IMG/VR virus record: IMGVR_UViG_3300028883_000135
Location: 1-24,515 of that record
Origin: a virus
Strand: one strand, 5' to 3'
Length of the DNA: 24,515 nt
Shown here piece after piece: positions 1,768 to 18,824 of this stretch. Below the pieces are notes generated by a model. The model ran no database searches. It was given only the letters and a program-made list of their open reading frames with translations, and was not told where the DNA came from. Numbering within the stretch: the stretch's first letter is position 1; every line of letters starts with the position of its first letter. A program made the position numbers and the translations under genes.

Positions 1768-1953
1768 ATGACCATTTTTCAAACAATATTAAAGGATAAA
1801 AACCTTACTTTGATTTTTATTTTTTATGACGGAAAAGGTCTTATGGTCCTGAAAGGTTTTAACGGTATGGAATTAAAGCGGAAAATGGCCCGGACGATGG
1901 AAAAAGCGCGCCGCCCGATGGTCCTGATGGTCCTGCGGGGGGCGGCCCGATGA
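1768..1953 (+). CDS. Small hypothetical protein before the primase (61 aa)
   Basis: ATG at 1768 is preceded by AGGTGG (1757-1762) with a 5-nt spacer; a GTG at 1759 is an alternative. The product begins MTIFQTILKDK and has a basic C-terminal half. Its TGA overlaps the primase ATG (ATGA at 1950-1953), suggesting translational coupling. The first half is AT-rich, unlike its neighbours, and the end contains a near-repeat coding MVLMVL that shares the GATGGTCCT unit with the terminator arm upstream. No family is recognised. It could be a leader ORF whose main job is to deliver ribosomes to the primase start, or it may not be a stable protein. Confidence 0.45.
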   Translation: MTIFQTILKDKNLTLIFIFYDGKGLMVLKGFNGMELKRKMARTMEKARRPMVLMVLRGAAR

Positions 1954-3344
1954 ACGTTTTGGATCTGCTCAAGAGCCGCGGCATCGAGCCGTGCCTGGCC
2001 ACCCGCGGCCGGGCCGGCGAGGAGTATTGGAGCCCGTGCCCTTCCTGCGGCGGGGATGACCGTTTCCATGTCTGGCCGGAGGAAAAGGGCAACGGCGCGT
2101 ACTGGTGCCGCCAGTGCGGCCGGTGGGGCGATGATGTCCAGTTCCGGGTGGATTTTATGGGCATGGACTACCCGGCGGCCTTTGCCGATGCCGGCCGCGA
2201 GCGTCCCCTCGACTATAAACGCCCGGCCCCGCGCCGGGAAAAGCCCGTTTTTCAGCCGCGGGCCGTGGCCGATCCGGATGCCGACTGGCAGCGCCAGGCC
2301 CGAAAACTGGTCCACGAGGCCCACCAGGCCCTGCTCGACAATCCGGCCCAGCTGCGCTGGCTGCGGGACAAGCGCGGCATCACCCAGGACACGGTCCAGC
2401 AGTTTCAACTGGGCACGGTGGCCGGCGAGAACAACCGCAACTGCCGGTTCCGCAGCCGCCAGGCCTGGGGCCTGCCGGAAATCAAGCGCGACAACGGCCG
2501 GCCCAAGGCCCTTTGGATCCCCCGCGGCCTGTTGATCCCGTACATCACCGGCGACACGGTCCAGCGCATCCGGATCCGGCGCCCGAAAGTCGACTGCCCG
2601 TCCAAAAAGGACGTGCGCTTTTACGTGCTGCCCGGATCGGCCATGATGCCCATGGCCATTGCATCCGATCAGCGGGCCGCGGCCGTGGTCGAATCCGAGC
2701 TGGACGCCATCCTGGTGGCCCAGGACGCCGGCGACCGGGTGGCCAGTATCGCGCTGGGGTCGTCATCGGCCCGGCCGGACCAGGCGGTCTGGCCGATCCT
2801 GAAAAAGGCCCTTTGCATCCTGGTGGCCCTGGATTTTGATCAGGCCGGGGCCAAGGCCTGGCGGTGGTGGCAGGATCAGTTTGCCCGAGCCCGGCGCTGG
2901 CCCGTGCCCCAGGGCAAGGATCCGGGCGAGGCCTGGGCCGGGGGGGTGGACCTCAAGGCCTGGATCTCCGCCGGCCTGCCGCCGGCCTGCCGTTTGGGAC
3001 CATCCGTTTTGACTGGTGATGACAAAGGGGCGGCGGCTAAAGATCCGGATGGGGATCCGGAAACGCCATCGGAAAAAACAGCCGCGGAAAACGGTCCAGA
3101 GACAGCGTGTCCGGACGTGGCCGAGACCGTGACCCGGCTCTACGGTCTGCTATGCGACGTGCCGCGCATCCGGATCCGGGCCACGGCCGATCAGGTCCAG
3201 CTGCTGCATGTCCCGTATCGGATAGACGATACTTTCCGGGGCGTCTCGCGCCTGGTCTATTCTGACGCGGCCTGCTGGGACTATCTGCAGGCCCATCCGG
3301 CGGACGTGATCGGCGCCGATAATTTTTATCAGAAAACTATTTAA
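1950..3344 (+). CDS. DNA primase with P4-type zinc ribbon and Toprim domain
   Basis: The 464-aa protein starts with a zinc ribbon whose ligands are C30, C33, C53 and C56 (CPSC...CRQC), with the GGxDRF motif (residues 34-39) typical of phage primases that read template DNA. A Toprim domain follows: VVESELD (246-252, acidic E248/E250) and DFD (295-297), the metal-binding residues that catalyse RNA primer synthesis. Residues beyond about 325 contain a low-complexity charged stretch and an unassigned ~80-aa tail starting near VTRLYGLL. With the SF3 helicase just upstream it forms a split primase-helicase pair. The start overlaps the preceding small ORF by 4 nt, and its own Shine-Dalgarno is poor (G-rich GGGGGGCGG), consistent with coupling. 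Confidence 0.85.
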   Translation: MNVLDLLKSRGIEPCLATRGRAGEEYWSPCPSCGGDDRFHVWPEEKGNGAYWCRQCGRWGDDVQFRVDFMGMDYPAAFADAGRERPLDYKRPAPRREKPVFQPRAVADPDADWQRQARKLVHEAHQALLDNPAQLRWLRDKRGITQDTVQQFQLGTVAGENNRNCRFRSRQAWGLPEIKRDNGRPKALWIPRGLLIPYITGDTVQRIRIRRPKVDCPSKKDVRFYVLPGSAMMPMAIASDQRAAAVVESELDAILVAQDAGDRVASIALGSSSARPDQAVWPILKKALCILVALDFDQAGAKAWRWWQDQFARARRWPVPQGKDPGEAWAGGVDLKAWISAGLPPACRLGPSVLTGDDKGAAAKDPDGDPETPSEKTAAENGPETACPDVAETVTRLYGLLCDVPRIRIRATADQVQLLHVPYRIDDTFRGVSRLVYSDAACWDYLQAHPADVIGADNFYQKTI

Positions 3345-3355
3345 GGAGGCTGTTT

Positions 3356-3895
3356 ATGACTTGTATCGTCGGTTTGGTTGATAGTGGGAAGGTTTACATG
3401 GGCGGAGACTCGGCCGGGGTTGCCGGGCTGGATATCTGCACCCGGAAGGATCCAAAGGTTTTTATCAACGGCTCGTTTCTGGTGGGCTACACGTCATCGT
3501 TTCGTATGGGGCAGCTGCTGCGGTTCAAACTGTCGCCGCCCAAGCATTATCCGGATGTCGATATTTATCAATTCATGGTGGTCGATTTTGTGGAGGCGGT
3601 CCGGGGGTGTCTGAAAGAAGGCGGTTACACCCGGGTGAACAATAACCAGGAAACCGGCGGTTCTTTTCTTGTGGGCTATAAAGGCAGGCTGTTCGATGTC
3701 GCGGCTGATTTTCAGGTCGGTGAGGTTGAAAAAGGGTATACCGCCTGCGGTTGTGGCCAGTCCTTTGCCCTGGGGTCGCTTTATCAGACCGAGGGCCAGA
3801 AGAATCCGAAAAAGCGTGTGCTGGCGGCGTTATCGGCGGCCCAGGAGTTTAGCGCCGGCGTGCGGGAGCCGTTTCACGTTTTGGAAATTGAATAA
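3356..3895 (+). CDS. Proteasome beta/HslV-like Ntn-hydrolase
   Basis: The 179-aa protein begins M-T-C-I-V-G. If the initiator Met is removed, numbering gives T1, D17 (in GGDSAG) and K33 (in RKDPKVF), exactly the catalytic Thr, Asp and Lys of proteasome beta subunits and HslV. A glycine-rich GCGQSFALGS segment near residue 134 matches the conserved GSGxxxAxG helix start of that fold. Length is close to HslV (~175 aa), and no propeptide is needed. Family members are threonine peptidases that work as barrels, usually fed by an ATPase; no HslU-like partner is in the window. It has an excellent ribosome-binding site (AAGGAGG, 3344-3350) just after the primase. Possible roles are phage or host protein turnover, anti-defence, or a non-peptidase amidohydrolase function. 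The family call is firm and the substrate is unknown. Confidence 0.8.
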   Translation: MTCIVGLVDSGKVYMGGDSAGVAGLDICTRKDPKVFINGSFLVGYTSSFRMGQLLRFKLSPPKHYPDVDIYQFMVVDFVEAVRGCLKEGGYTRVNNNQETGGSFLVGYKGRLFDVAADFQVGEVEKGYTACGCGQSFALGSLYQTEGQKNPKKRVLAALSAAQEFSAGVREPFHVLEIE

Positions 3896-3908: not shown

Positions 3909-4103
3909 ATGAAAATGGCATATATCGCCACGGACACCAAAACAAAAGAATGCTACGCAATCTGTTCGGCTGATCCGGATTTTATATCTGACGCGGCAGA
4001 AGAATTGCGGCAGTGGAAAAAAGACGGGGCGGTTATAGAGCTTTTACCGCGCGAGGAGGCGCTGTCCCGTTTTTTAAAAGATCTTCCGGGGCCAGAAAAA
4101 TGA
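3909..4103 (+). CDS. Small hypothetical protein (64 aa)
   Basis: ATG at 3909 follows AAAAGGGGAC, a reasonable Shine-Dalgarno, 13 bases after the Ntn-hydrolase stop. The product (MKMAYIATDTKTKECYAICS...) looks like a compact alpha/beta protein: a strand, an acidic helix (DAAEELRQWKKDG), and a second strand leading into VIELLPREEA. No family is recognised. Its stop overlaps the next start as ATGA at 4100-4103. An open frame extends far upstream inside the Ntn-hydrolase gene but has no matching ribosome-binding site. Confidence 0.65.
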   Translation: MKMAYIATDTKTKECYAICSADPDFISDAAEELRQWKKDGAVIELLPREEALSRFLKDLPGPEK

Positions 4104-5459: not shown

Positions 5460-5688
5460 CAATCTAAGCGTGTTGAAGTTTCGCAGCTTGGCGGAGGGCG
5501 GCGGGTCGAAGGCCTATGACGAGTGGGTCGAGGTCTGGGACTGCGAGACCCCGCTTTTCAACCTTACCACCCACGATCAGGACCGGATCACCGACGCCAT
5601 CCGCGTCTACAACCTGGGGCTGGAGTCCGGCCGGACAGAAGGCAAGGCGGATGCCCGCCGGGAAATCCGGCAGGCGCTGGGGCTATAA
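5422..5688 (+). CDS. Hypothetical protein (88 aa)
   Basis: ATG at 5422 follows AAAGGAGG (5405-5412) at 9-nt spacing. The protein has a short beta-rich start (MAAITPCGILEINNLSVLKF) and an acidic middle (YDEWVEVWDCETPLFNL), then a helical end (ADARREIRQALGL). No family is recognised. Its TAA shares one base with the ATG of the radical SAM gene (TAATG at 5686-5690), so the two are likely translated together. Confidence 0.65.
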   Translation: MAAITPCGILEINNLSVLKFRSLAEGGGSKAYDEWVEVWDCETPLFNLTTHDQDRITDAIRVYNLGLESGRTEGKADARREIRQALGL

Positions 5689-6506
5689 TGATCAGAGTTT
5701 TTCCCAGAAAAACAAAGTGGACGCCGGTGGATGATCTGGCATTCGTCGGGGATCCCGGACTGTTTCGGCCGGCAGAGCAGCCGGTGTTTATTTCCTGTAC
5801 ATTTACCTGGGATATCTACGAAGCAGAGCGGCTTTTTCATTCCTGGTCGCGGTTTTATTCCGATGTCCGTCTGGGCGGGCCGGCCTTTGGCGATCGTGGC
5901 GGAGATTTTACACCGGGCCGGTTTTTAAAGCCGGGAGTCACGATCACCTCGCGGGGCTGCCCCAAAAGCTGCCCCTGGTGCATGGTGCCGGCCAGAGAGG
6001 GCGGGATCCGCGAGGTGCCCATCCGTGACGGGTGGGACGTCCAGGACAACAACCTGCTGGCCTGCTCGTTTGATCATGTCCGGAAGGTCTTTGAAATGCT
6101 GGCCGGTCAGCGCCACCCGGTGTTTTTTCATGGCGGCCTTGATTCCGAGTTTTTAACCGAAAAGCATGTTGGGCTTCTGGATTCGATCCGGGTCGGTGAA
6201 ATGTGGTTTGCCTGCGACAGCATAGGGGCAGAGTATAACACAGAAAAGGCGGCCGAGTTTTTATCCCATTATCCGCGATATAAAAAACGGTGCTACGTGC
6301 TGGTGGGGTTTAACGGCGAGACCGTGGCCCAGGCTGAAAAGCGCCTGTTTAAGGTCTGGGACCTGGGTTTTTTGCCGTTTGCGATGCCGTATCGATCGGA
6401 CGCCGCAAAAAAAGAGTTTTACGGGGCAGACTGGTTAAGATTAATCAAAACATTTTCACGGCCGCCGGCCACAAAAGCAGCGATGAAAGCGCGGGCGGCG
6501 GCTTAA
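5688..6506 (+). CDS. Radical SAM protein of unknown substrate
   Basis: The 272-aa protein carries the radical SAM [4Fe-4S] signature CX3CX2C at C91, C95 and C98 (RGCPKSCPWCMVP). A partial TIM-barrel's worth of sequence follows: a GGLD segment after strand 3, FACDS, and VLVGFNGET. Such enzymes cleave S-adenosylmethionine to a 5'-deoxyadenosyl radical. About 80 residues precede the cluster, and there is no SPASM, TRAM or B12 domain, so it is not a typical MiaB, RlmN or QueE. Start at 5688 is coupled to the upstream gene. It lies directly before an NDT-like gene, a ParB-like gene and a methyltransferase fusion, so a nucleoside or DNA-base substrate is an attractive but unproven inference. The family is certain and the reaction is unknown. 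Confidence 0.8.
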   Translation: MIRVFPRKTKWTPVDDLAFVGDPGLFRPAEQPVFISCTFTWDIYEAERLFHSWSRFYSDVRLGGPAFGDRGGDFTPGRFLKPGVTITSRGCPKSCPWCMVPAREGGIREVPIRDGWDVQDNNLLACSFDHVRKVFEMLAGQRHPVFFHGGLDSEFLTEKHVGLLDSIRVGEMWFACDSIGAEYNTEKAAEFLSHYPRYKKRCYVLVGFNGETVAQAEKRLFKVWDLGFLPFAMPYRSDAAKKEFYGADWLRLIKTFSRPPATKAAMKARAAA

Positions 6507-7579: not shown

Positions 7580-8378
7580 AAAACTTTCCTGCTGGCATGC
7601 GGTGGAAGCGGCTCTGAAGTCCGGCGATCTGGTGCGCCCGCCGGTGTGCGACCGCTGCGGCCAAAAGGCGCCCCCGGACAACCCCCTCCAGGCTCACCAT
7701 GCGGATTATGACCAGCCCCTTTGTGTCGAGTGGTTGTGCAAGCGTTGCCATATGGTCGAGCACCATGGCGGGGCCGTCAGAAAAAAAGACAATTCCACTC
7801 TGCGCCAGAAAAGCTTGCTGCGCCAGAAACTGCTGGCCGAGATCGATGACCCCGTGGTCCTGGAAACCCACGGCGGCGCCGGCAAGTTGTTTTTAGCGTG
7901 TTATAAAGATGTTGCAGCCGGCATTGTGTTTGAAAAAGAGCCTGTCAAAACCGCGATTCTGGCACAGCAACGCCCGGCCTGGTTGGTGTATGAGTGTGAC
8001 AGCCGGCATGCCCTGGCGTCTGGCGTAGGGGCCCGGTTGCAGCCCGATTTTTTCGATCTGGACCCCTACGGGGACCCATGGCCGTTTATCGACTGTCTTC
8101 TGGCCGGCGGTCATTACCGCCCGGTCCGCATGGCCCTGGCGGTCAACGATGGCCTTCGTCAGAAATTGAAATTAAACGGCGGGTGGTCGGTCCGATCCAT
8201 GCGCCAGATGGTGGAACGTCACGGCAACAATTCCCTGTATGCCAATTATCTGGAAATTTGCCGGGAAAACATGGCCGGCCTGGCCCAGGCGGCAGGGTAC
8301 CACCTGGTGCGCTGGGCCGGCTATTATTGCGGGCATGTGGATCAGATGACCCATTATGCGGCGGTTTTGGAGCGGTAG
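7563..8378 (+). CDS. HNH-like zinc finger fused to an SAM-dependent methyltransferase-like domain
   Basis: The 271-aa protein has two parts. Residues 10-68 form a zinc-binding HNH-like finger (C29, C32, H45/H46, C59, C62, H63). Residues 95-270 look like a class I methyltransferase: motif I ETHGGAGKLF (101-110), an acidic end of strand 2 at FEKE (123-126), ECDSRHAL (144-151), and motif IV DLDPYGDPW (165-173). The DPYG tetrad recalls DPPY of DNA amino-methyltransferases and DPFG of tRNA guanine-N2 methyltransferases. DNA is the likelier target given the adjoining ParB-like protein. Start at 7563 has AGGAGGTG upstream and overlaps the ParB-like gene by 17 bp. It ends tail-to-tail with the minus-strand cassette, overlapping by 25 bp. 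The zinc finger is clear; the methyltransferase call is motif-based. Confidence 0.65.
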   Translation: MVSKAKKLSCWHAVEAALKSGDLVRPPVCDRCGQKAPPDNPLQAHHADYDQPLCVEWLCKRCHMVEHHGGAVRKKDNSTLRQKSLLRQKLLAEIDDPVVLETHGGAGKLFLACYKDVAAGIVFEKEPVKTAILAQQRPAWLVYECDSRHALASGVGARLQPDFFDLDPYGDPWPFIDCLLAGGHYRPVRMALAVNDGLRQKLKLNGGWSVRSMRQMVERHGNNSLYANYLEICRENMAGLAQAAGYHLVRWAGYYCGHVDQMTHYAAVLER

Positions 8379-9109
8379 GCCGCCAGATCTTTTTTGATGT
8401 AGCGCGGTTTGCTGTACCGGTCCAGCAGGTCCTCGACCGTGACCAGAAATTCGGCCCAGTCGATGGTATCAGCGAAAGGATGATGATTGAGTTTGCCGAC
8501 TTTATACAGATCCACAAAATCATGGGTTTCATGGATTAGGCGATATACGGCCGCTGGATCGATCACCGGCTCAAAGCTGACCCAGGTTTTCAGCCCGTTT
8601 TTATGGGCGGTTTTCAATGCCTGGATGCGATCTGCGGGCAATGCGGCCCCCGGTTCCCATTTTTTAGATTGGTCCGGGTCATCCAGGGTCAGGGTGGCGG
8701 CCCAGATGCAGCGGGCTTTTTGCAATATGGGCAGGTCCCGTTCCACGGCCCAGGCCCCGGCCTTGGTCAAAACCTGGGTTTTCAGGTGGTATCCGGCGGC
8801 AATGGAAAGGGCCTGTCGGGTGATTTTGTGCTGTTTTTCAATGGGCTGGTACGCATCGCTGGTAAAACTTAACAGGATCCGTCGGGGATCCCCGGCAATT
8901 TTTCGGGCGCTGCGCTCAAACAGTTTGATGATATCTTTTCTGGGCTGGGGGTCGGCTGAAAATTGTTCCCGGGCGTTTTTAGCGAATTTATACGGCGGGA
9001 TTCCCGGCACATAGCAATAGGTGCACCCATGGCTGCAGCCTTTATACAGGTTGGCGGCCAGGGGCGAGTATTCCAGGGCTTTTCCTTTGGGCTCGTAAAT
9101 GATGCACAT
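8354..9109 (-). CDS. Radical SAM protein, spore photoproduct lyase-like (SplB/COG1533 type)
   Basis: The 251-aa protein has the CX3CX2C cluster at C25, C29 and C32 (YKGCSHGCTYCYVP), placed close to the N terminus as in COG1533 proteins. LLSFTSDAYQPIE, KTQVLTKAG and WAATLTLDD follow in the order of that family, ending with VSFEPVIDP. Relatives include spore photoproduct lyase, which reverses a thymine dimer, and many uncharacterised radical SAM enzymes. ATG at 9109 has AAGGAG on the minus strand; a longer reading upstream lacks support. It is the last gene of the minus cassette and overlaps the plus-strand methyltransferase gene tail-to-tail by 25 bp. A DNA repair or modification role is inferred only. 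Confidence 0.8.
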   Translation of the reverse strand: MCIIYEPKGKALEYSPLAANLYKGCSHGCTYCYVPGIPPYKFAKNAREQFSADPQPRKDIIKLFERSARKIAGDPRRILLSFTSDAYQPIEKQHKITRQALSIAAGYHLKTQVLTKAGAWAVERDLPILQKARCIWAATLTLDDPDQSKKWEPGAALPADRIQALKTAHKNGLKTWVSFEPVIDPAAVYRLIHETHDFVDLYKVGKLNHHPFADTIDWAEFLVTVEDLLDRYSKPRYIKKDLAAYRSKTAA

Positions 9110-9195
9110 GGTGGTTCTCCTTTTTAAGATGTTTTTCAGGGCGGCCGAGTTGAATCCGCCCGGAGCTCTTTGACAATTTGCAAAACGTTTGATTT

Positions 9196-9231
9196 TCCCC
9201 TGGCCCTGTGAGGCTTGGGCCGGGGGATTTT
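9196..9231 (+). terminator. Strong hairpin with T-tract on the plus strand
   Basis: CCCCTGGCCC (9197-9206) pairs with GGGCCGGGGG (9217-9226), one G-T wobble included, around a 10-nt loop. TTTT (9228-9231) follows on the plus strand. The T-tract orientation would stop plus-strand read-through entering the minus cassette. On the minus strand the same hairpin lies between two genes and is followed by an A-tract, so there it is more likely an mRNA structure than a terminator. Confidence 0.5.
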
Positions 9232-9662
9232 TACGGTTTGGCCAAAACAGCCACATACTTTTCAAGACCCTGGTCCGGATCCAGCCAAAACGACGCCACC
9301 CAAATTTCGAGCACGGCCCGCTGAAAGGCGGTCAGCTCTTTGAGCGCGGCTTCGGTGGCGGTCCGGTCGATGTCCCATTTTTCTTCGTACATGCCGGGGT
9401 AGAGCGCGAATGAATCCTCGACATTGGCCTGCATGTGCTGCCCGGCAAGGCCCGCGGTGAGAAAAGTTCCATTCATCACGTCCACGAACATTTTCAGCTG
9501 GCCGGCGGTAAACCGGCCCTTGAGTTCTCGCATGAGCGTGGCCTGGTAGAGCCCGGGGACGGCGGCCAGGGTGAATTCGGCGCCGGCGTTGGCTGATTTG
9601 AATTTGTTGCTGTAGAAATCGATTGCGGTTGTCGGGACCGCTGGCCCCATTTTTTTCAGCAT
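9231..9662 (-). CDS. Hypothetical protein (143 aa)
   Basis: The chosen ATG at 9662 has AAAGGAGTC on the minus strand 5-6 nt upstream. A farther in-frame ATG at 9677 lies inside that ribosome-binding sequence and is rejected. The protein (MLKKMGPAVPTTAIDFYSNKF...) looks helical, with repeated hydrophobic helices (ATLMRELKGRFTAGQLKMFVDVMNG, AALKELTAFQRAVLEIWVASFW) and an acidic linker. There is no signal peptide, cysteine pair or known catalytic motif. It follows the RHH-like gene closely and is the third gene of the minus operon. No family is recognised. Confidence 0.65.
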   Translation of the reverse strand: MLKKMGPAVPTTAIDFYSNKFKSANAGAEFTLAAVPGLYQATLMRELKGRFTAGQLKMFVDVMNGTFLTAGLAGQHMQANVEDSFALYPGMYEEKWDIDRTATEAALKELTAFQRAVLEIWVASFWLDPDQGLEKYVAVLAKP

Positions 9663-11379: not shown

Positions 11380-12108
11380 ATGCAAGACCAAATAGACCGT
11401 ATCGAAAAACGCTGTGACCCGTCCGAGCTGGTGGAGGTCCGGCTGTTGCGCAAGGGCCTGGCCCAGTGCCAGAAGACCTACAACCAGGACCCCACCGCCA
11501 CAGCCAAGCGCAACTGGGACGCGGCCCGCGAGGGGCTTTCCGCCGTGATCGAGCGCCTGGAGGGCAAGTATTTTGCCCGGGATGAGGTCTTAAAGAATCG
11601 CCTGGCCGTGGTCAAGTACCTGGCCGGTCAGGGGTACAAGGCCAAGCGCCAGAAAGTGTATGACGACGCCAGGGCCGGTCTGCTCAAGATCCAGCCGGAC
11701 GGATCCGTGCGGGTCAATGACGTGGTGGCCTATATTGCCCTGGCCGGGTTAAAGCGGGTGAAAACCGCCGAAGGCGAGCTCGACGATCTGCACAAAAAGG
11801 AAAAGCAGCTCCAGATCGAGTGCCTGGAGGTCAAGCGTGACCGGGAGACCTTCAACCTGGAAAAAGACCAGGGCGCCTACATCGCCCGGGAGGACCACGA
11901 GGTCCAGATGGCGGCCCTGGCCGGGCTCATGGAGCAGACCGTGCGCCAGGCCCTGCGCTTTGTGCTCGAGGACACGATCCTGATGGCCGGCGGATCCACC
12001 AAAAAGCTGCAGACCTGCCTGGACGCGGCCAACCGGCGCCTGGATGAATCCTATAACGCCCTGGTGGCCGAGGGTGAGTTTCAGGTGATTTTTGAGGACG
12101 CCAACTGA
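11380..12108 (+). CDS. Terminase small subunit-like DNA-packaging protein
   Basis: The 242-aa protein lies directly before the large terminase, whose ATG overlaps its stop (TGATG at 12106-12110). After a helical N terminus, residues ~75-118 form a helix-turn-helix-like unit (VVKYLAGQGYKAKRQKVYDDARAGLL, then PDGSVRVNDVVAYI), as in Nu1-type proteins that recognise the packaging site. A coiled coil follows at ~128-165 (ELDDLHKKEKQLQIECLEVKRDRETF), then REDHEVQMAALAGLMEQTV, typical of the oligomerisation region. ATG at 11380 is preferred. An upstream GTG lies at 11248, inside the hairpin and promoter region, and would add an implausible hydrophobic segment. The Shine-Dalgarno is weak (AGTGGA). 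The assignment rests on position and fold-like pattern. Confidence 0.7.
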   Translation: MQDQIDRIEKRCDPSELVEVRLLRKGLAQCQKTYNQDPTATAKRNWDAAREGLSAVIERLEGKYFARDEVLKNRLAVVKYLAGQGYKAKRQKVYDDARAGLLKIQPDGSVRVNDVVAYIALAGLKRVKTAEGELDDLHKKEKQLQIECLEVKRDRETFNLEKDQGAYIAREDHEVQMAALAGLMEQTVRQALRFVLEDTILMAGGSTKKLQTCLDAANRRLDESYNALVAEGEFQVIFEDAN

Positions 12109-14027
12109 TGCCAGCCGCCGCCCATAAGCCGATCCCCGTCCCGTCCCGCTGGCGCCCGGCGTCAACGGCCGATCGTGTCGCGGCCCTCGAGGCGTATCTG
12201 AAGCTGCCGGTGGGGGTGAAAAAGATCCTGCGCAAAAAAAAGCCGGTGGCGGTCTCGGGCTGGGCCGAGCGCTGCCGGGTGGTGACCATGAGCTCGGTGC
12301 CCGGGCCGTGGAAAAACCGGACCGCGCCGTATCTGGCCGGGATCATGGATGCCTCGTTTTATCCGTCGGTCGAAGAGATCGACATCTGCGCGGCGCCCCA
12401 GACGGGCAAATCCGAGTGCATCAACAACTGCGTCGGGTACTGCATCGACCGCCGGCCCGGGTCGGTGCTGTATGTCTACCCGGACGAAATGACGGCCCGG
12501 GAAAACAACCAGGACCGCATCATCCCCATGATCACCAGCTCGCGGCATTTGCGGGCCTATATGACCGGTTATGTGGCCGATGCCAACTCGCTGCGCATCA
12601 ATCTGCAGCACATGCAGATCTATATGGGGTGGGCGCGCTCGGCATCCCGCCTGGCCAACAAGCCCCTGCCCTATCTGGTCTTGGACGAGGTCGACAAATA
12701 CCCGGACACCGCCGGCAAAAAAGAGGCCGGCCCCATCCCCCTGGCGGAAAAACGCACCCGGACCTATCGGGGGTACCGCCGGATCTGGAAGGCCTCCACC
12801 CCCACCATCGAGTCCGGCCCCATCTGGCAGGCCCTTCTGGCCGCCGACGTGATCTTTGATTTCTGGGTGCGCTGCCCAGGTTGCGGGGCCTGGCAGAAGA
12901 TGGAATTCAAGCACATCCGCTGGCCCAAAGACTGCCGGGATCCCAAGGTGATGGAGGCCAGGGACCTGGCCCGGTACGTCTGCCCCCGTTGTGAGGCGTC
13001 CTGGGATGATCAGGACCGGGACCGGGCCGTGCAGCAGGGCGAGTGGCGCAGCCGGCCGGCAGACGACAATGACCGGCCCATCACCCTGGAAACCTATTTA
13101 AAGGCGCGCAAACCCAAAAAGATCGCCTTTCACATCCCCTCCTGGTTGAGCCATTTTGTGGGGTTGTCGGAAATCGCGGCCCGGTTTTTGAAAGGACTGA
13201 CCGACAAGACGGCGCTCAAGGATTTTCGCAACAACGACGAGGCCGTGCCCTGGGTGGCGTATGCGGTGGAGCGCAAAGAAGACCGCATCCTGCTGCTGCG
13301 CGACGATCGGCCCCGGGGCCGAGTGCCGGGCGGCGGGGTCGTGGCGGCCATGACCGGCGCGGTGGACACCCAGGACTATGGATTCTGGTATGAGATCCGC
13401 GCCTGGGGCTATGGCCTGCAAAAGGAATCCTGGCAGATCCGCGAGGGGTATGTGACCACGTTCGAGGCCATCGAGGAGGTCATGTGGGCCAGCGAGTACC
13501 TGGACGCCGACGGCCTGTCTTATATCGTCAACCTGGTGCTCCAGGACGCCCTGGGCCACCGCACATCAGAGGTGTACGACTTCTGCCGCAAGCACCGTGG
13601 CAAAATAGTGCCGATCTTCGGACAGCAGACCATGGCCAACCCGCACACCTGGACTAATATCGAGTGGTATCCGGGCACCAAAAAGCCCATCCCTGGAGGT
13701 CTGAAGGCATTAAGGCTTAATTCGCAATATTACAAGGACGATCTGGCCGGGATCCTGGAAATTGCCCCGGCTGATCCGGGGGCCTGGCATTTTCACTCGG
13801 AGACCACGTTCGAGTGGGCCCAGCATCTGACCGCCGAGTACCGGGACGAGAAAAACATCTGGCAGTGCCCGTCCGGCAAGGCTAACCATGGCTGGGACTG
13901 CTCGTATATGCAATTGGCGGCCCATGATGTCCTGGGCGTGCGCCACTGGCCGCGGCCCGAGGCGGCGGCGGCCGCAAAGAAAAAGGCACGGCCGGCGGGG
14001 GGGCGGGTGCGGCCGAGGCGGTGGTAG
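12108..14027 (+). CDS. Terminase large subunit, GpA family
   Basis: The 639-aa ATPase-nuclease packages phage DNA into proheads and cuts it. Walker A is AAPQTGKS (95-102), with the Gln-Thr form seen in GpA proteins. Walker B is LVLDE (D193, E194) in LPYLVLDEVDKY. A zinc-binding insertion has CPGC (C256, C259) and CPRC (C292, C295). The RNase H-like nuclease domain begins at GAVDTQDYGF with D420, and a later acidic site lies near VLQDALGHRTSEVYDF. Length and order agree with lambda gpA (641 aa). It is translationally coupled to the small subunit. The C terminus is Ala-, Lys- and Arg-rich (about 620-639). GpA terminases usually make cohesive ends, so a cos site may lie nearby, but none was identified. 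Confidence 0.93.
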   Translation: MPAAAHKPIPVPSRWRPASTADRVAALEAYLKLPVGVKKILRKKKPVAVSGWAERCRVVTMSSVPGPWKNRTAPYLAGIMDASFYPSVEEIDICAAPQTGKSECINNCVGYCIDRRPGSVLYVYPDEMTARENNQDRIIPMITSSRHLRAYMTGYVADANSLRINLQHMQIYMGWARSASRLANKPLPYLVLDEVDKYPDTAGKKEAGPIPLAEKRTRTYRGYRRIWKASTPTIESGPIWQALLAADVIFDFWVRCPGCGAWQKMEFKHIRWPKDCRDPKVMEARDLARYVCPRCEASWDDQDRDRAVQQGEWRSRPADDNDRPITLETYLKARKPKKIAFHIPSWLSHFVGLSEIAARFLKGLTDKTALKDFRNNDEAVPWVAYAVERKEDRILLLRDDRPRGRVPGGGVVAAMTGAVDTQDYGFWYEIRAWGYGLQKESWQIREGYVTTFEAIEEVMWASEYLDADGLSYIVNLVLQDALGHRTSEVYDFCRKHRGKIVPIFGQQTMANPHTWTNIEWYPGTKKPIPGGLKALRLNSQYYKDDLAGILEIAPADPGAWHFHSETTFEWAQHLTAEYRDEKNIWQCPSGKANHGWDCSYMQLAAHDVLGVRHWPRPEAAAAAKKKARPAGGRVRPRRW

Positions 14028-16748: not shown

Positions 16749-18824
16749 ATGTCAAAAAAAATTACCCCGATCACGACCCGGTCCCAGCCCAAATCCGACC
16801 TGACCTATCGCACCCTGTCCCTGCGCCTGGCCTCCGACGGGCGGCCCTCCACCCTGGATGTGGAGGGCCGCAGCGTCGAGGTGGTGGGGGCCACGGAAAA
16901 CCCGGTCACCATTTTTGACTATGACCAGTGGGCCGAGATCGATGAAATACTGCTCATGTCGGGCCTGGAGATGCCAGAGTCCCGGCAGGTGCCGTTAATG
17001 GATACCCACAGCCGATATTCGACTGCCAGCGTTCTGGGGTCCTACCGCGACATGCGTGTCGAGGCGGACCAGCTGATGGGGCGGGCGTTTTTTTCATCGG
17101 CACCCGAGGCCGAGGGGCCTTACACCAAGGTATCCGAGGGCCATCTGACCGACTTTTCGGTCGGTTACCGCCAGATCCAGTCCGTCTGGGTGCCCGACGG
17201 CGAGACCGTCAAGATCAAGGGGCGCAGCTTTACCGGACCGGTGCGCGTGACCTCGCGCTGGCGTATCAAAGAGCTTTCCGTCTGTCCCATCGGGGCCGAC
17301 GAAATGGCCAAGGCCCGCACGGCCCCGGCAGCCCCTGAACCCCCTGTCAACCAATCAAAGGAGAAACCCATGAACGAACGCTTGAGAGCTATTTTAGAGG
17401 CCCGCGGCCTGGCAACGGACGCCACCGAGGATGAGGCCTGGGCCTTTCTGGGCCGGGGCATGGTGCCCGAAACGCCGGCGGCCGCCGGTACCGGCAACGA
17501 CAACCCGCCCGACGCCGACACCATCCGCGCCGCGGCCATCGCCGAAGAACAGGCCCGCGTCACCGAAATCACGGCCATGTGCGCCCGGCACGAGTGCAGC
17601 GACCTGGCCGAATCCCTGATCACCGGCAACGTGTCCCTGGACCTGGCCCGGCAGCAGGTTTTGGACCGCGTGGCGGCCCGGGAGGATGATCCCAATCTGA
17701 ATCACCACGGCCCGGCCGTCATCCAGGCCGACGAGCGCGACAAGTTCAGGGCTGCCGCCGGTGACGCCCTGATGATCCGGTCCGGGTCCCGTCCGGCCGA
17801 GCCGGCCGTCGGCGCCGACGATCTTTCCGGGTACACCCTGCGCGAGCTGGCCCGCCACTCGCTGCAGCTGGCCGGCCAGCCCACCGGGGGCCAGCCCCTG
17901 GAGATGATCGGCCGGGCCATGACCACCAGTGATTTTCCGTATATTCTGGCCAACGTGGCCAACAAAAGCCTGTTCGAGGGCTGGGATGCGGCCGAGGAAA
18001 CCTGGCAGATCTGGTGCGCCACCGGGTCCGTGTCGGATTTCAAAACCAATTACAGCCCGCGGGTCTCCGAGGCATCGGACCTGGAAGAGGTGCCCGAGTC
18101 CGGCGAGTACAAGTACGGCAAGCGCACCGAGGCCCAGGAATCGTTTAGCATCGCCACCTACGGCAAACTATTTGCCATGTCGCGCCAGACCGTCATCAAC
18201 GATGACCTGTCCGCCCTGACCGACACGCCCCGTGCCCACGGCGAAGCTGCGGCCCGCCTGGTGGGTGATGTGGTCTATGCAGTGCTGACCGGAAACGCGG
18301 CCATGGGTGACAGTGTGGCCCTGTTTCATGCCGACCACGGCAACCTGGTGGCTGACGGCAACGGCGGAGGTCCGGGTATTGCCACCCTTGCCGCCGGCAT
18401 TCTGGCCATGGGCACCCAGACCGACCTCCAGGGGTTGCGCCGGCTGAATATTGTCCCCCGGTTTTACCTGGCTCCCAAGGCCTTGGAAGGCAGCTCCGAG
18501 GTGTTTTTCCGGTCCGGCAATTTTGCCGACTCCGATACCGTGTCCACAGACAGCTCCCTGGCCGCCACCCGGGTCAATCCATACGGCGGCAACTACCTGA
18601 CACGGGTGTACGAGCCCCGCCTGGATGACGATGATCCGTTGCGGTGGTACCTGGCCGCCAAAAAAGGCAAGACCGTCAAGGCGTTTTTTCTCAATGGTGT
18701 CCAGAAACCGTACATGGAAACCAAGGCCGGCTGGACCGTCGACGGCGTGGAGTACAAGGTGCGCATCGATGTGGGCGCCAAGGCTATGGACTGGCGCGGG
18801 CTGTACCAGAACGACGGCAATTAA
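16749..18824 (+). CDS. Prohead protease fused to major capsid protein
   Basis: This 691-aa polyprotein combines two head functions. Residues 17-190 are an HK97/U35-like prohead protease with catalytic-type H87 (MDTHSRYS) and S137 (LTDFSVGY). Residues ~208-340 are a charged, helical scaffold-like region. Residues ~355-691 match Mu gpT-type major head proteins (LARHSLQLAG, AMTTSDFPYILANVANKSLFEGW, FALFxADHGNL-like ALFHADHGNL). The protease normally removes the scaffold region and itself from the assembled prohead. An excellent internal ribosome-binding site precedes M208, so a second, capsid-only product is likely. Such fusions are known among phages of this general type. The fusion start at 16749 has AAGGAT upstream. 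Confidence 0.87.
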   Translation: MSKKITPITTRSQPKSDLTYRTLSLRLASDGRPSTLDVEGRSVEVVGATENPVTIFDYDQWAEIDEILLMSGLEMPESRQVPLMDTHSRYSTASVLGSYRDMRVEADQLMGRAFFSSAPEAEGPYTKVSEGHLTDFSVGYRQIQSVWVPDGETVKIKGRSFTGPVRVTSRWRIKELSVCPIGADEMAKARTAPAAPEPPVNQSKEKPMNERLRAILEARGLATDATEDEAWAFLGRGMVPETPAAAGTGNDNPPDADTIRAAAIAEEQARVTEITAMCARHECSDLAESLITGNVSLDLARQQVLDRVAAREDDPNLNHHGPAVIQADERDKFRAAAGDALMIRSGSRPAEPAVGADDLSGYTLRELARHSLQLAGQPTGGQPLEMIGRAMTTSDFPYILANVANKSLFEGWDAAEETWQIWCATGSVSDFKTNYSPRVSEASDLEEVPESGEYKYGKRTEAQESFSIATYGKLFAMSRQTVINDDLSALTDTPRAHGEAAARLVGDVVYAVLTGNAAMGDSVALFHADHGNLVADGNGGGPGIATLAAGILAMGTQTDLQGLRRLNIVPRFYLAPKALEGSSEVFFRSGNFADSDTVSTDSSLAATRVNPYGGNYLTRVYEPRLDDDDPLRWYLAAKKGKTVKAFFLNGVQKPYMETKAGWTVDGVEYKVRIDVGAKAMDWRGLYQNDGN
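17357..17372 (+). promoter_or_regulatory. Internal ribosome-binding site and in-frame start for the capsid protein
   Basis: AAAGGAG (17357-17363), a 6-nt spacer and ATG (17370) lie in frame at residue 208 of the fusion, right after the proline-rich linker APAAPEPPVNQSKEKP. Starting here gives a 484-aa scaffold-capsid protein without the protease. The sequence is as good as or better than the fusion gene's own start site. Confidence 0.75.

Follow-up and report, generated by a model that had tools for sequence, protein, structure and literature searches.

A gene at positions 3356-3895 (+) of the window, the 24,515-nt stretch of viral DNA analysed here, encodes a 179-residue proteasome-like N-terminal threonine hydrolase that is best filed as AAH type (phrog_1040 E=1.1e-19, AlphaFold2 (AF2) model, Foldseek). 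We consider it probable that this protein is an AAH-type (group I) threonine hydrolase, carried as a single-gene accessory by unrelated tailed phages, that self-assembles and acts as an ATPase-free peptidase. A broader proposal, to which we give an even chance, is that the AAH proteins form a stand-alone proteasome lineage, free of any ATPase, whose single gene moves among phages, prophages and plasmids, and which rhizobia have recruited into a NifA/sigma-54 regulon. Phage-borne proteasome homologues of this kind are already published (phrog_1040; PMC8665760), and the surprise is limited. Those described have no known function; the window adds a member that is clearly functional, as judged from its sequence.

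The window, a viral contig of 24.5 kb, is classed as linear and may be a fragment. The product of ORF 3356-3895 opens with Met-Thr and starts MTCIVGLVDSGKVYMGGDS...RKDPKVF... (also written as beginning MTCIVGLVDSGKVYMGGDSAG). A Shine-Dalgarno sequence, AAGGAGG (3343..3349, +), lies 6 nt 5' of the ATG and overlaps the primase stop codon; its placement just 5' of the start codon counts against a propeptide. The upstream primase (1950..3344, +; zinc ribbon and Toprim; phrog_849 E=6.4e-30, Pfam PF08273) ends 11 nt before the threonine hydrolase gene, and the two are probably co-transcribed. Downstream lies a 64-residue frame with no assigned function (3909..4103, +), which is not conserved beside relatives of the threonine hydrolase gene. 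The primase and threonine hydrolase genes share their strand with the small ORFs and the HNH gene that come next. Elsewhere in the window, two radical-SAM-type proteins are encoded on the one contig, at 5688-6506 (+) and 8354-9265 (-); the latter has a match to PF04055 (5.4e-9) and a weak one to DUF5131, and the former gives weak matches only. The frame at 16749-18824 (+) encodes a prohead protease fused to a major capsid protein, with capsid family PF25209 in its C-terminal half, and matches at 31-32% over 99% the products of Rhodobacter phages RcKemmy and others, which are annotated likewise.

The earlier note had placed Thr, Asp and Lys at proteasome numbering once the initiator Met is removed, and this proved exact. 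Thr1 (codon 3359..3361, +), the expected nucleophile, Asp17 (3407..3409, +) and Lys33 (3455..3457, +) occupy the precise proteasome positions. In an alignment of 43 phage, prophage and plasmid relatives, Asp17 and Lys33 are found in 43/43, and 42 have Thr at the first position, with Ser in the remaining one. The sole Ser1 relative, from Tenacibaculum phage pT24 (L054; MSTIIAV), is predicted to use this Ser as its nucleophile. Because Thr or Ser directly follows the start Met in all aligned relatives, a propeptide would not be needed. Gly43 (3485..3487, +; residue 44 when Met is counted) aligns with the oxyanion-hole glycine of HslV and the proteasome and is Gly in 42/43. The GxGxxxAxG segment, also described previously, was found at residues 132-140 (GCGQSFALG; 3749..3775, +), with G132 and G134 invariant across the 43 relatives. 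Residue 133 (codon 3752-3754), at the position of the Ser of the GSG motif in HslV and BPH, is Cys in the window protein and in 24 of the 43 aligned sequences, so the catalytic surroundings differ from those of HslV and BPH. A Cys after Thr1 together with Cys133 characterises much of the family in this alignment.

The closest relative, L002 on a 5.3-kb viral contig, is 84% identical to the window in protein and 72% in DNA; all other relatives found share about 62% identity or less. Nucleotide differences between the window and L002 distribute as 32/13/106 over the three codon positions, with a dN of 0.10 and a saturated dS, a pattern that points to strong purifying selection on the protein. 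Judged by this pattern, the threonine hydrolase ORF is not a chance frame. The possibility that the gene is a non-functional relic was also weighed. We found no point in its favour, and the purifying selection, intact frame, ribosome-binding site and conserved catalytic residues make it so improbable that it was rejected.

In homology searches, the window protein alone matched no Pfam family at E<=1, and gave weak matches to the bacterial proteasome beta subunit (E=0.03) and, against the PDB, to BPH (E=0.16). The PHROG family phrog_1040, named ‘peptidase HslV family’, was matched by the window protein at 1.1e-19 and by all 19 sequences of a smaller alignment that includes it; PF00227 was matched by 6/19 relatives. 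A profile built from the 19 sequences matched BPH 5ovu best (2.8e-9), with HslV 1m4y at 1.9e-7. The AF2 model computed from the same alignment (pLDDT 95.4, pTM 0.90) shows an Ntn hydrolase sandwich (alpha-beta-beta-alpha) of the kind seen in proteasome beta subunits, the fold whose absence had been set beforehand as grounds for refutation. Four helices flank the sandwich (H1 49-58, H2 70-88, H3 135-144 and H4 151-165), a single terminal strand spans residues 174-178, and the model has neither S12/H5 nor an insertion. Foldseek placed BPH 5ovs at the top of the PDB matches (E 1e-11, TM up to 0.83), followed by HslV at a TM of about 0.7 and proteasome beta subunits, and in a viral structure library at least three phage proteins had a closely similar fold (TM 0.95). 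The predicted fold, together with Thr1, Asp17, Lys33 and the oxyanion Gly, supports membership of the proteasome-like (Ntn hydrolase) superfamily.

In an effort to place the protein relative to HslV, we used the model TIGR03692, whose cut-off of 157.75 bits host HslV genes pass. This model gave no match to the window protein at E<=10 and none across the window and phage records at E<=0.001; four of 19 relatives matched it weakly (best 9.2e-7). The predicted H1 is short (residues 49-58) and is followed by a loop, the HslV sequence being without such a Pro-rich stretch in the alignment, and the loop that follows H2 exceeds that of HslV in length and resembles BPH more closely. With TIGR03692 silent, the fold nearer to BPH and no HslU-class gene over the family cut-off in 14 complete phage genomes, an HslV orthologue was rejected. 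The earlier description of a proteasome/HslV-like threonine hydrolase in a phage is borne out for the fold, the catalytic residues and the Thr after Met, and fails in the strict sense of HslV.

The companion claim that the window holds no ATPase gene was too broad. A D5-type helicase (74-1681) and a terminase (12108-14027) are both of ATPase class, and it is an HslU-class unfoldase alone that is missing. The HslU model TIGR00390 was run on the window, on 14 complete phage genomes that carry a relative and on a set of viral contigs, and nowhere scored above its cut-off; one T5-like phage gave a marginal AAA match (4.7e-4, below the HslU cut-off). The lack of a partner ATPase in the 14 complete phage genomes argues for an ATPase-free mode. 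An alternative is that the phage HslV-like subunit replaces the protease half for host HslU and thereby redirects degradation by host HslUV. HslU is available for such an arrangement in the three Bacillota hosts checked, where it scores over the cut-off, and the fold is related to HslV at a TM of about 0.7. Those same three hosts already encode their own HslV over its cut-off, however, and both the silence of the HslV model and the differences at H1 and after H2 speak against this arrangement. Members of the family also reside on Streptomyces plasmids, and actinobacteria are not generally known to encode HslUV; our HslV control search gave no match in Corynebacterium. We regard this alternative as distinctly unlikely, and continue with the ATPase-free reading.

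Relatives occur in 178 of 50,697 phage records, in 23 viral loci, in three Bacillota prophages and on 26 plasmids. Among the plasmid copies, those of rhizobia are 51-59% identical, with several of the plasmids symbiotic, those of Streptomyces are 50% identical, and Paraburkholderia is also represented. About 200 genomes of one host's order yielded only the seed itself, and the gene is thus rare in hosts. The word ‘unusual’ in the earlier note was overstated, given the 178 phage records, the family name in PHROGs and the phage-borne homologues reported in 2021 (PMC8665760). The linked genes for which a survey had been proposed did not emerge. Neighbours of the relatives change completely between genomes, and when all ORFs in the fetched loci were compared, no family recurred in most of the 34 distinct contexts, the exception being a terminase family near six Bacillota-type prophage copies. 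As far as gene context can tell, the threonine hydrolase gene behaves as a single-gene accessory module (‘moron’) with no conserved partner.

A gene that moves alone and changes its neighbours in this way is typically an accessory one, which lends some weight to the idea of a protease for host takeover or counter-defence, directed early in infection at the removal of one specific host protein. The location in the replication region, beside the primase and probably on a common transcript, points the same way. Against this idea, defence-system models (PADLOC) gave no match and no linked defence or anti-defence gene was identified, and the cellular copies on symbiotic plasmids need no phage target. 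We judge a dedicated takeover role to be unlikely; it is a proposal about the target and could hold together with the AAH-type peptidase that we prefer.

Nucleotide-metabolism genes, which are frequent in large phages, neighbour the gene in T5-like phages, in Geobacillus virus E3 and on a Bacillus licheniformis plasmid, among others. At L037, L038, L039, L044, L050 and L053, loci of large phages, the neighbours comprise thymidylate synthase, DHFR, ribonucleotide reductase, dCMP deaminase or PhoH.

A further alternative is that, instead of acting as a general peptidase, the protein is an Ntn hydrolase of other chemistry: a connectase-like protein ligase, for example, or an amidase or acylase. 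Connectase shares the fold and Thr1 and is nonetheless a ligase (PMC8665760). The replacement of Ser by Cys at residue 133, the Cys after Thr1 in much of the family and, in many phages, the setting among nucleotide-metabolism genes could all fit a different reaction. The hallmark of connectase is absent, however: the model retains both H1 and H2 and has no pair of helices inserted between S3 and S4. Among solved structures, those nearest to it are proteases or homologues of proteases. These observations leave another chemistry improbable. Nonetheless, two points count against our preferred reading: the Cys at residue 133, and connectase, which has the same fold and is a ligase and also a monomer (PMC8665760).

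The mechanism that we favour for the AAH-type peptidase can be laid out in a few steps. Host methionine aminopeptidase would remove the initiator Met and expose Thr1, which, on the basis of sequence conservation and the predicted fold, would form the active site with Asp17, Lys33 and the oxyanion Gly43. Subunits would most likely assemble in a BPH-like manner, as a small ring or double ring. With no dedicated ATPase, the assembly would cut peptides or loosely folded proteins during infection, from which the phage would presumably gain a benefit.

The cellular relatives offer a regulatory lead. Of 13 AAH loci from rhizobia and Paraburkholderia, 11 have a sigma-54 element-like site 5' of the gene, between -109 and -124 relative to the ATG (L040, L041, L045 and L058-L065, on rhizobial plasmids, symbiotic ones among them). 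The element is near the consensus of the -24/-12 type (TGGYA..TTGCW, GG-N10-GC). Shuffling produced a site of equal quality in 0 to 3% of trials per locus, and 14 control loci, examined over the corresponding interval, had none as good. A NifA-type TGT-N10-ACA motif lies within 450 nt in 10 of the 11 loci that bear the sigma-54 site, as compared to about 0.1 expected per locus. The 11 loci are partly related and are not 11 independent cases; Rhizobium, Sinorhizobium and Mesorhizobium are all represented. In four Sinorhizobium species, the AAH gene is flanked by rpoN-nifQ on one side and an iron-sulfur/nifS cluster on the other. Combined, the promoter motifs and gene order suggest that the rhizobial AAH genes belong to the nitrogen-fixation regulon. 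Among literature titles and abstracts, we found none linking a proteasome homologue to a NifA/sigma-54 regulon. The promoter evidence provides a concrete setting for cellular relatives at 51-59% identity and, if the recruitment is real, the first physiological setting in which AAH function could be tested.

Fuchs, Alva and Lupas (2021; PMC8665760) described 22 new proteasome-like classes, for which gene context was uninformative. Two of them, PPH and AAH, are linked to phages, and a third class, CPH, is likewise flagged as present in phages (PMC8665760); CPH is a second, less favoured candidate class for the window protein. PPH is about 140 residues long and lacks helix H2 (PMC8665760). The window protein shares with it the nature of a phage-borne proteasome-like subunit but has 179 residues and an H2 at 70-88, and an assignment to PPH was rejected. 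Aeromonas phage 2L372X (L052:4001-4963) has two proteasome homologue genes in tandem, an AAH-like one and, immediately downstream, another (VTTIAYKNGVMVSDGRMSLG...) that may be of PPH type. The phrog_1040 profile spans 277 positions including a C-terminal extension, which the window protein lacks. Members from Pseudoalteromonas (L050:4001-5167) and Vibrio (L057:4001-4963) phages carry a C-terminal extension of 140-210 residues whose fold is unassigned.

BPH provides the best fold match and the best profile match, and shares with the window protein a long loop after H2; long pore loops have been linked to unfoldase-free BPH (PMC8665760). Identity to BPH is only about 20%, however, and BPH falls on a separate branch of the tree. 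HslV has the fold, the T1-D17-K33 set and the GxG segment in common with the window protein, which differs in its longer loop after H2, its lack of a TIGR03692 match and the absence of HslU. In the maximum-likelihood tree, the window protein sits in a 17-row clade (support 96/85) with rhizobial, Streptomyces and Bacillota-prophage copies, and BPH and HslV lie on a separate branch (BPH branch support 98/94).

AAH has been reported from alphaproteobacteria, actinobacteria and many phage genomes, with phages having carried it into Firmicutes and Bacteroidetes (PMC8665760). It is a group I class with helices H1-H4, no propeptide and no AAA+ partner (PMC8665760). The window protein likewise has four helices H1-H4, no propeptide and no AAA+ partner; its relatives occur in phages and Bacillota prophages, and the nearest cellular copies lie on rhizobial and Streptomyces plasmids. 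On distribution, fold and tree, with AAH and CPH compared by description only, AAH is the best filing for the window protein, from which it differs in nothing that defines the class.
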